From: Xanthostigma xanthostigma
Taxonomy: Eukaryota; Arthropoda; Insecta; Raphidioptera; Raphidiidae
Reading direction: 5' to 3'
Assembly (NCBI GenBank): GCA_963575645.1
Contig: OY754465.1
Location: 42,434,401-42,498,400 of the forward strand
DNA: 64,000 bases
Shown: piece by piece, positions 43,490 to 46,061 of the stretch
Layout of the letters: each line of letters begins with the position of its first letter
Position numbering within the stretch: position 1 is the first letter of the stretch
The notes under the pieces: generated by a model
Told to the model about the DNA's origin: nothing
The model's input: the letters and a program-made list of their open reading frames with translations, nothing else
The model's database searches: none
Program-made: the position numbers and the translations under genes

Positions 43490-44026
43490 TGTAACGATTC
43501 AAAACTTTTATATTACATTGTACGTAGTTTAGAGGTAATAATTAGAATTGGGTATTTACTGTACTTGTCTATTTGTTTTGTCACGGCGCGTGTCAATTTT
43601 GGTTTTGGCATGTTGAACGACGCAGTGAAATAAAGAAAAAAAATATGTTTTTTGTCTGAAAAAAGGCAGTAGGTTTTAAAAGGTTGAAATAGGATGTATT
43701 AAAAATAAGCTGTGAAAAAGTGTTGAAATATTTCTTTTAAATCACATCAGGGAGAATCTGGAGTACTTGGTGATCTACCGATCCAAATTTCTTTCTGCAT
43801 GTGTCGTTTAATTGATTATTTTTCACTTTGTCAATTCCAATCACATTAAAATATCAGAAATTTTCTGTGTGTACATTCTAAGATATCTTGTTCACAACAA
43901 TTTTATAATAAAACATTCAAAATAAATATTTTAAATTGTTTATTAATTTTATTAAAATTTATTTTATATTATATTACGAGACGATTACGTGAGCTTATCC
44001 GAAAAAGTCCAAAGTTAATCGTTTCA
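43490..44026 (+). repeat. 5' LTR, 537 bp
   Basis: Begins TGTAACGATTCAAAAC and ends GTTAATCGTTTCA; the short end inverted repeat is TGTAACGATT / AATCGTTTCA with one mismatch. It contains TCACGGCGCGTGTCAATTTT and, near the end, an AATAAA (in TTCAAAATAAATATTTT). Nearly identical to the 3' copy. Confidence 0.95.
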
Positions 44027-44028
44027 TT

Positions 44029-44046
44029 TGGCGCCCGAGCAGGGAC
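44029..44046 (+). other. Primer binding site, tRNA-Lys type
   Basis: TGGCGCCCGAGCAGGGAC begins two bases after the 5' LTR. It matches the complement of the 3' end of animal tRNA-Lys(UUU) (TGGCGCCCGAACAGGGAC) at 17 of 18 positions. This shows that the first-strand start signal was kept when the coding part was replaced. Confidence 0.9.
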
Positions 44047-44188
44047 TGGACCTTGGAAATTATCCAGACTAACACCAAGTGACATTTTGGACATTTTAAT
44101 AATAATATCAATAATTATTATTAAATCAATATCAATCAATTAACTATAAATCGATGTGTTTATATATTATAAAATTTAAGTTATTAAA

Positions 44189-45039
44189 ATGACTACAAAA
44201 AGTGAAAAAAAAAAAGATCGTGCAAAACAAATTCAGGACAAATACCAGCAAGTACTAAGTAAATGATTTGTTAAGAGATGAGGTAAATAAATATTGTGTC
44301 GATTGCGATACAAAAGGAGCTCGTTGGGCATCGTGGAACATAGGTATGTTTTTATGTATACGATGTGCAGGAATGCATAGAAATCTCGGCGTTCATATTT
44401 TGAAAGTAAAATCAGTGAATCTGGATACATGGACATATTTCTCAACAAATGTACAATAGTCGTGTTTGGGCTGTTTACGAAGTAAATTTGCCCGACCATT
44501 TCCGTCGTCCTCAGAACGATTCTAGTTTAGAGTCATTTGTGCGCGCGAAATATGAACATAAATAGTATATCGCCAGAGAATGGGTGCCTCCGGCACTGCC
44601 AAAAGTAAATTGGGATAAAGAAGACGACAAATCCAGTGTCGAAAACGCGAAAGTTCAAAGCGAAGAAGAAAGTTTCTTTAATCAACCGACTCCGACCGAA
44701 AAAGAGGAGACGAAATTAACTGAAGATAGCATATTGGCATTATACGGCAATACTCCGATGCAACAAACCACATTTCAAGCAAATTACGCTCCGACAGGGG
44801 CAATTCCTGGCTTTCAAGTTCAGCAACAAGCATTTCAAGTTCCAGTTTATCCGACAAACTTGCAAGCTTCCTCGCAACCGCAGCAAGCTTTTCAAAACCA
44901 ATCGACATTTGTTTCGCCTCCTCAGAATCAATTTGTGATGGCTCAACAAACGATGCAATCTCAAAACTTCGCTCCTAATACGGGCGCAGCAGTGCCTAAT
45001 CCCTTTTACGCTAATCAACAAGCCCTGCAACAACAGTAA
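44189..45039 (+). pseudogene. Intron-less SMAP-type ArfGAP copy inside the LTR element
   Basis: The parent protein family (SMAP1/2) is an Arf GTPase-activating protein acting in clathrin-dependent membrane traffic. The copy starts with MTTKSEKKKDRAKQIQDKYQ, then a recognisable ArfGAP zinc finger: NKYCVDCDTKGARWASWNIG, MFLCIRCAGMHRNLGVHI. The four cysteines have the family spacing C-x2-C-x16-C-x2-C and the arginine of the GAP finger (HRNLG) is present. Next come LPDHFRRPQNDSSLESFV-like sequence and REWVPPALPKVNWDKED, as in SMAP proteins. The last 151 codons are a Gln/Pro-rich tail ending near an NPF motif (VPNPFYANQQ), which in the family binds EH domains. The whole is uninterrupted by introns, so it derives from messenger RNA. 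It is decayed, with several breaks, and is treated here as a fossil. It is not a working host gene. Confidence 0.85.
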
Positions 45040-45525
45040 CTAAGTAGATAGTCAATTGTTTGTGTAAATGTGCATTCTTATCGGGTGCATAAAGAATTTA
45101 AAGCGGAATTATGGACAGTCATAGTTCATAATTAAATTTTACTATGACGCGCTATGACTGTGCATAAATTGTGATATGATTTAGTTAAATTTTGTCTTTG
45201 AACATCTAAATGCACAGATCTTTATTTTATACTTTGCAGTAAATATAAACACAATTGTTTTTTTTTATAGTTGAAAATTCTTCGAACATTTTATATTGTT
45301 TTCAGTTGAAAAGATTGATTAACTAATTTTTTTTAATTGTTTTGAAATTTTTATGTTTTTTTTTAATATTTTATATAGTACGTGTAAACGAAGATTAGTA
45401 TTTTATTCAATGTGGTAAATCTTCGTAAAATTCCAGGTAGTACATAATTCTCATTTATTTAAGCGGTTCATCCTCCATGCATTTCTTTATTCTAAAATTG
45501 TTCGTATGAACCGCTGGGGGGGCTA
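45040..45525 (+). other. Non-coding internal part and polypurine tract of the LTR element
   Basis: After the cargo there is about 470 bp of AT-rich DNA which may be the 3' untranslated part of the captured messenger. It contains the hairpin-like pair ATGGACAGTCATAGTTCATA / TTACTATGACGCGCTATGAC. At 45511-45525 CCGCTGGGGGGGCTA stands directly before the 3' LTR and is the likely polypurine tract for second-strand priming. Confidence 0.7.
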
Positions 45526-46061
45526 TGTAACGATTCAAAACTTTTATATTACATTGTACGTAGTTTAGAGGTAATAATTAGAATTGGGTATTTACTGTAC
45601 TTGTCTATTTGTTTTGTCACGGCGCGTGTCAATTTTGGTTTTGGCATGTTGAACGACGCAGTGAAATAAAGAAAAAAATATGTTTTTTGTCTGAAAAAAG
45701 GCAGTAGGTTTTAAAAGGTTGAAATAGGATGTATTAAAAATAAGCTGTGAAAAAGTGTTGAAATATTTCTTTTAAATCACATCAGGGAGAATCTGGAGTA
45801 CTTGGTGATCTACCGATCCAAATTTCTTTCTGCATGTGTCGTTTAATTGATTATTTTTCACTTTGTCAATTCCAATCACATTAAAATATCAGAAATTTTC
45901 TGTGTGTACATTCTAAGATATCTTGTTCACAACAATTTTATAATAAAACATTCAAAATAAATATTTTAAATTGTTTATTAATTTTATTAAAATTTATTTT
46001 ATATTATATTACGAGACGATTACGTGAGCTTATCCGAAAAAGTCCAAAGTTAATCGTTTCA
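45526..46061 (+). repeat. 3' LTR, 536 bp
   Basis: Same sequence as the 5' LTR apart from one A fewer in an A run near position 45670. It is followed by GTTC, the duplicated target. Confidence 0.95.

Follow-up and report, generated by a model that had tools for sequence, protein, structure and literature searches.

A stretch of 64,000 nucleotides from the genome of the insect Xanthostigma xanthostigma (Raphidioptera; GenBank assembly GCA_963575645.1, contig OY754465.1, positions 42,434,401 to 42,498,400 of the forward strand; this whole stretch is termed the window) carries a complete long terminal repeat (LTR) element of 2,572 bp, read off the sequence at 43490–46061 of the plus strand, whose interior consists of host sequence from a gene of the SMAP family. 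The element very probably represents a non-autonomous Ty3/gypsy-type LTR family with a spliced and broken SMAP mRNA as its interior; this mRNA was likely captured through template switching, and a gag-pol relative likely supplied the proteins that copied the element. The window lies on the contig designated C2 here, and the searches reported below covered the 623-Mb genome.

The two LTRs, both of the form TG...CA, of 537 bp (43490–44026) and 536 bp (45526–46061), aligned with no mismatch and a single gap of one base in an A run, a similarity far beyond chance, and flank comparison identified a GTTC target site duplication on either side (43486–43489 and 46062–46065). The primer binding site (44029–44046) is the 18-nt exact complement of the tRNA-Lys(UUU) 3′-end including CCA, as encoded by three tRNA genes (L055, L056 and L059), and a G7 tract at 45516–45522, the presumed polypurine primer site, directly follows an inverted repeat (AGCGGTTCAT/ATGAACCGCT, 45462–45515) that is present in the gag-pol relative too. 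Between these signals, host SMAP sequence occupies 44052–45407, namely a partly deleted 5′ untranslated region (UTR; 44052–44188, corresponding to host locus L043 from 212 to the start codon), a coding remnant of two joined exons with a broken frame (44189–45039), and a 3′ UTR (45040–45407, 93% identical to L043:2466-2831), both UTRs being assigned by position. The coding remnant comprises an ArfGAP domain remnant (44266–44565), with an internal loss near 44437 and a TAG at 44563–44565 that are common to the copies, and a Gln/Pro-rich tail remnant (44566–45039) with an open stretch of 157 aa and internal deletions compared with the host; the element's own 3′ region follows at 45408–45525. No gag or pol was found in the SMAP element, only both ends of its interior match the gag-pol relative, and the Ty3/gypsy gene order (gag, protease, reverse transcriptase, RNase H and integrase) is absent from it. 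An earlier sequence-only reading had described paired LTRs, a 4-bp target duplication, a tRNA-Lys-type primer site, a purine tract and an interior devoid of gag and pol, and was right on each of these points.

The origin of the interior was established by comparison with the host gene. The ArfGAP piece of the window copy matched the solved structure of SMAP1B (PDB 2crr, E = 8.4e-29) and the Pfam ArfGap family (E = 2.7e-24), and the host SMAP gene was located on contig C10 (read as L043), with an intact frame of 486 aa and one 350-bp intron within the coding region (L043 501–850). Among 120 listed of 3,213 matches to the host protein, the best had 54% identity, the first named ones were from a lacewing and a beetle, and the named ones examined were from insects. 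The cargo follows the order of the host mRNA, i.e. sequence upstream of the start codon (L043 from 212), exon 1, exon 2 and downstream sequence to L043 2831, and all 13 full copies compared with L043 contain parts of both exons, lack the intron and carry sequence flanking the coding region on both sides, with identical outer limits of host sequence; one copy, L012, is devoid of part of exon 1. Thus, the cargo is an intron-less copy of a SMAP family gene, as the first reading had recognized, and the comparison with the host exon structure that it had proposed confirmed the absence of the intron. Relative to the host, the tail and the downstream part have each lost internal portions, and two of the three large internal deletions coincide with host repeats of 8 and 9 nt (TTCGCTCC; AACAACAGT), the pattern expected from strand jumping. 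A spliced host mRNA is joined to element sequence with neither a poly-A tail nor a target duplication of its own, which is what defines an LTR-mediated retrocopy.

The captured sequence is no longer a gene. The SMAP frame of the window copy is in pieces; all 20 anchor matches, which come from 19 examined loci (two from L040), show a stop just before YIAREW, and the loss inside the ArfGAP domain was detected at 19 of 19 pattern matches as well as in L015, which the text pattern missed, while the host gene has neither lesion. An intact SMAP frame with the ArfGAP finger is thus lacking in the element cargo, and a working gene was rejected on the broken frame in all 19 loci checked; the claim that the only gene of the element is a captured SMAP accordingly held for the capture and failed for the gene, a pseudogene at each of these loci. 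Since the lesions are common to all 19 loci, the family most simply multiplied after its cargo had broken. In L040, L041 and L048, the cargo is ∼57 nt shorter than that of the window, with the loss between the 5′ UTR and the ArfGAP motifs in each; judged by this shared length difference, the three are a putative subfamily.

The element is dispersed throughout the genome. A first LTR search, of which the best 40 of 392 candidates were scored, yielded 32 insertions: 19 are solo LTRs, and the other 13 are full elements, each of which contains SMAP. The 4-bp target duplications of the full elements differ in all 13 cases, as do their flanks, and every one of the 19 solo LTRs likewise lies between 4-bp duplications; spread by segmental duplication was rejected, as no similar flanks were found among the 13 copies. 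Eight of the 13 LTR pairs show no mismatch, which points to recent insertion, and the remaining five have 8, 5, 11, 2 and 1 mismatches. A search with the cargo returned 52 candidates, and each of the 40 that were scored had an identity of at least 90%. Genome-wide, a 25-nt LTR/primer-site pattern (≤3 mismatches) matched 49 sites and a 28-nt pattern of the G7 purine tract and LTR start matched 48, with none for either in the reversed control. Of the 49 LTR/primer-site junctions, 46 are in SMAP elements and three in gag-pol elements, and a matching 3′ site exists for 47, of which 44 have SMAP nearby and three do not, where SMAP was assigned by coordinates, from which alone most SMAP copies are known. 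The 44 two-ended SMAP copies correspond to 41 places when tandem arrays are counted once. The two unpaired 5′ junctions belong to one SMAP copy on C5 and one truncated SMAP copy (L051), and an unpaired 3′ site (L064) is a SMAP element 3′-end, the rest of which is absent from the 7.6 kb examined. The proposed genome search thus returned SMAP elements at different sites, each of the 13 checked with a different target duplication.

Some of these loci have features of their own. The LTR of L064 (C1:48382600-48390200) is 90.5% identical to that of the window and 86.5% to that of the gag-pol relative, and the locus is perhaps an older branch. On C5 (C5:23662500-23666100), two SMAP units 2,042 bp apart share LTRs, and on C6 (C6:31541700-31548300) three units do so, two of them covered by L040, whose self-repeat is 99.8% identical; this arrangement suggests unequal exchange between LTRs, not new insertion. 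L012, the SMAP element at C7:27348965, has an insert of ∼700 bp in its 3′ part, within which L012:2117-2242 encodes a hAT dimerisation fragment (Pfam, E = 7.1e-07).

The gag-pol relative, sought as the related autonomous element that the earlier reading had postulated, is present in the same genome. Three SMAP-free elements (L052, L053 and L054) of ∼6.67 kb have open gag (385 codons) and pol (1,402 codons) frames, target duplications AGAC, TTAC and AAAC, and 0, 2 and 0 LTR mismatches, respectively. In L052, Pfam matches to reverse transcriptase, RNase H and integrase lie above the cut-off and those to protease and Ty3 capsid below it, which gives the Ty3/gypsy gene order with the protease below cut-off, and the solved structure nearest to a pol piece is the Ty3 reverse transcriptase (E = 1.7e-63). 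The SMAP element, itself devoid of these genes, is accordingly a non-autonomous derivative of a Ty3/gypsy-type lineage. The interiors of the two element types share their last 117 nt (94.9%, E = 1e-48), including the last pol codons of the relative. Three more blastn matches between the interiors (13–21 nt, E = 0.22–0.81) look like chance. Both joints are visible because the LTRs, the primer site and the final 117 bp before the 3′ LTR recur in the relative. The 5′ joint (44047–44053, host similarity from 44052) reads GACTGGATCGTTGGGAA in the relative, CCATCTTGGAAATT in the host and GACTGGACCTTGGAAATT in the element, and the 3′ joint reads TTTTATTATAA in the host, GTTCACAATG in the relative and TTTTATTCAATG in the element.

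The primer site itself may bear a trace of reverse transcription. Among 22 primer sites fully read, 17, including those of the three gag-pol relatives, are TGGCGCCCGAAAAAAGAC, two (the window and L051) are TGGCGCCCGAGCAGGGAC, two (L009 and L040) are TGGCGCCCGAACAGGGAC, and one further site differs. The forms TGGCGCCCGAGCAGGGAC and TGGCGCCCGAACAGGGAC are perfectly complementary, over 18 nt, to two tRNA-Lys(UUU) types encoded in the genome; among nine tRNA-end matches fetched, four are tRNA genes (three of one type and one of the other) and five are not. Genome-wide, nine of the 49 primer sites match one or the other of these two forms, three of these nine within one tandem array. The simplest reading is that in the tRNA-matching copies the primer site was overwritten with primer tRNA sequence as reverse transcription proceeded; if true, this would support both mechanism and primer independently.

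To account for these observations, we propose that an ancestor of the gag-pol relative would have packaged a SMAP mRNA by chance into its particle, that the reverse transcriptase would have left the element RNA for SMAP RNA close to the 3′-end and returned to the element RNA beside the primer site, and that the chimera would then have integrated, its cargo decaying afterwards. Gag and Pol supplied in trans could have kept copying the chimera, as the LTRs, the primer site and the purine tract were retained. Template switching followed by mobilisation by a related autonomous element had already been suggested from the window; the dispersed family and the gag-pol sister support this, while we infer the switching and the mobilisation themselves.

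Several points weigh against this scenario. Copying in trans is deduced from the shared LTR, primer-site and 3′-end sequences rather than observed. The LTR of the gag-pol relative is only 88% identical to that of the window ignoring gaps (81–82% in BLAST), so the relative is a sister and not the direct parent, and since gag-pol relatives were sought via two junction patterns only, any whose ends have diverged further would have escaped detection. At their 5′ ends, the two interiors match over a short stretch of ∼35 nt (80%, E = 0.22), mostly primer site, and microsimilarity at the joints amounts to a short TTGG motif at the 5′ joint, with none obvious at the 3′ joint. At the third large internal deletion, the joined ends have almost no bases in common, and the names 5′ and 3′ UTR follow from position, not from transcripts. 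Moreover, the source of the captured RNA may have been a SMAP copy that had already changed, and not the main gene, because a SMAP piece outside the LTR family (L044/L045, described below) has an internal deletion in common with the LTR copies and no ArfGAP lesion.

Among the other explanations, one holds that the SMAP segment is retained for a function to the element or host, as a protein, a packaging signal or a source of small RNAs. It is favoured by the excess of two-ended SMAP copies over gag-pol copies (44 versus 3), by the low variability of the Gln/Pro-rich tail (44566–45039), with a mean pairwise difference of 0.019 versus 0.042–0.054 in the rest of the interior in an alignment of 10 copies, and by the exact 23-mers of the host mRNA, 343 of 2,248 of which occur in the window copy and 643 in at least one of 19 loci. 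Against it stand the stop and the ArfGAP loss common to the copies checked, and the changes in a 365-bp block of the tail: 3 silent and 5 replacing are fixed in 13 copies, and 13 silent and 18 replacing occur among copies, only slightly above the 27% silent changes expected without selection. Strong selection on the cargo was rejected on this small excess, and we consider a retained function unlikely.

A second explanation, which we regard as quite improbable, invokes DNA-level recombination or read-through transduction of an LTR element beside a SMAP retrocopy, followed by deletion of gag-pol. An altered SMAP copy does exist outside the LTR family, as the SMAP piece of L044/L045 has four substitutions and the mid-deletion in common with the LTR copies (12 of the 13 were used in this comparison, L010 being left out), but has retained the ArfGAP stretch, so the source may not be the mRNA of the main gene. 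An unrooted tree places this piece with the host gene, as the absence of the LTR-copy changes would give, and the simplest reading is that the piece split off from the ancestor of the LTR cargo before the damage arose. The joints speak otherwise: the 5′ UTR starts no more than ∼6 nt from the primer site, and of the parent just the last 118 nt survive, a pattern that two switches in one reverse transcription explain better than several DNA events do. A processed SMAP pseudogene made by a long interspersed nuclear element (LINE), landing in a pre-existing LTR element and carried along, would likewise yield an intron-less copy, but is very unlikely and, as a plain pseudogene between LTRs, was rejected: the cargo ends have no poly-A tail and no target duplication, gag and pol are gone, and host sequence runs from ∼6 nt past the primer site to 118 nt before the 3′ LTR in all 13 copies, the opposite of a solitary insertion with its own tail and duplication, which the sequence-only reading had held would overturn its view.

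The loci L044/L045, together with L046/L047 (C10:794200-797400 and C10:11583200-11586200), are two DNA-transposon copies, ∼95–96% alike, with a SMAP exon-2 fragment. TNP-like RNase H domains in L046 are pieces of the transposase, which we take to be P-element/THAP9-like. Elsewhere in the window, an inverted repeat of 585 bp (27867–28451 and 28657–29241, 99% complementary), with smaller inverted repeats nearby, resembles a foldback element, and open stretches at 50711–51154 (minus strand) and 61376–61780 (plus strand) encode a DUF4817 helix-turn-helix domain (Pfam, E = 1.6e-12 and 8.9e-14, respectively) and are likely transposon fragments.

With the host gene, the gag-pol relative, the joints and many independent insertions in one genome, capture, decay of the cargo and amplification can be traced stepwise. 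If copying in trans is true, a retroelement can shed essentially all of its interior and yet multiply, and the location of the packaging signal is narrowed; a dead host-gene cargo can also spread widely and might provide the material from which small RNAs directed at its parent gene arise. More tentatively, and well short of an even chance as a whole, the host mRNA might occupy the whole interior of this animal LTR retrotransposon as a pure RNA passenger, ∼15:1 over the gag-pol copies that share its ends, in which case the sequences required by Gag and reverse transcriptase of the relative would be confined to the LTRs, the terminal 118 nt and the primer site plus a few adjoining bases, or else the packaging signal would come from the SMAP RNA itself; small RNAs that tune the SMAP gene could then arise from the dozens of dispersed copies. 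Small RNAs against the parent gene are reported for the Pxyfem retrocopies of Plutella (PMC9674220).

Terminal-repeat retrotransposons in miniature (TRIMs) are very short elements with very short LTRs, defined by size limits. The SMAP element resembles TRIMs and large retrotransposon derivatives (LARDs) in that it has no gag-pol and has kept its replication signals, and with 2,572 bp and LTRs of 537 bp it exceeds the TRIM size.

Gene capture by LTR elements is established, as described for Bs1 (PMC13317346, PMC5408686), for 30 plant TRIM elements of seven subfamilies (PMC4717578) and for Pxyfem (PMC9674220), and metazoan LTR retrocopies were reported by Tan et al. 2016, as cited in PMC5408686 and PMC9674220. 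Maize Bs1 is, like the SMAP element, an LTR element with RNA-derived host gene sequence, but is described as holding segments of three host genes with no full-length frame (PMC13317346, PMC5408686), whereas here one mRNA, from 5′ UTR to 3′ UTR, fills nearly the whole interior in an animal host. The plant gene-fragment TRIMs, e.g. soybean GmaRetroS15, are likewise non-autonomous, with exon-only fragments, mostly multicopy and with target duplications; they measure 1,172–1,449 bp, related larger LTR elements are given for only 11 of 289 TRIM subfamilies (PMC4717578), and, unlike in the plant cases as described there, the gag-pol relative, the host gene and both joints of the SMAP family are identified. 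The metazoan LTR-mediated retrocopies also have host mRNA joined to an LTR element by template switching, but are described as retrocopies as such (Tan et al. 2016, via PMC5408686 and PMC9674220), while the SMAP chimera is a family of more than 40 dispersed copies. The W-linked Pxyfem retrocopies of Plutella, also from an insect, are multicopy and join host cDNA to LTR retrotransposon sequence; they are reported as tandem arrays with unidentifiable LTRs (PMC9674220), in contrast to the dispersed SMAP copies with LTRs and target duplications. The ant PbTRIM, a non-autonomous LTR element that also comes from an insect, likewise makes 4-bp target duplications and leaves solo LTRs, but unlike the SMAP family it has a non-coding interior and no autonomous partner found by its authors (PMC3532108). 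Searches of open-licence papers yielded plant cases, PbTRIM and Pxyfem, and no animal LTR family of dozens of copies with one host mRNA as its whole interior was found among them. The initial view was that full replacement of the coding region of an insect LTR element by a host cDNA is rarely described; the replacement of nearly an entire interior by one mRNA and its amplification in an animal are an unusual variant of the known LTR gene capture.

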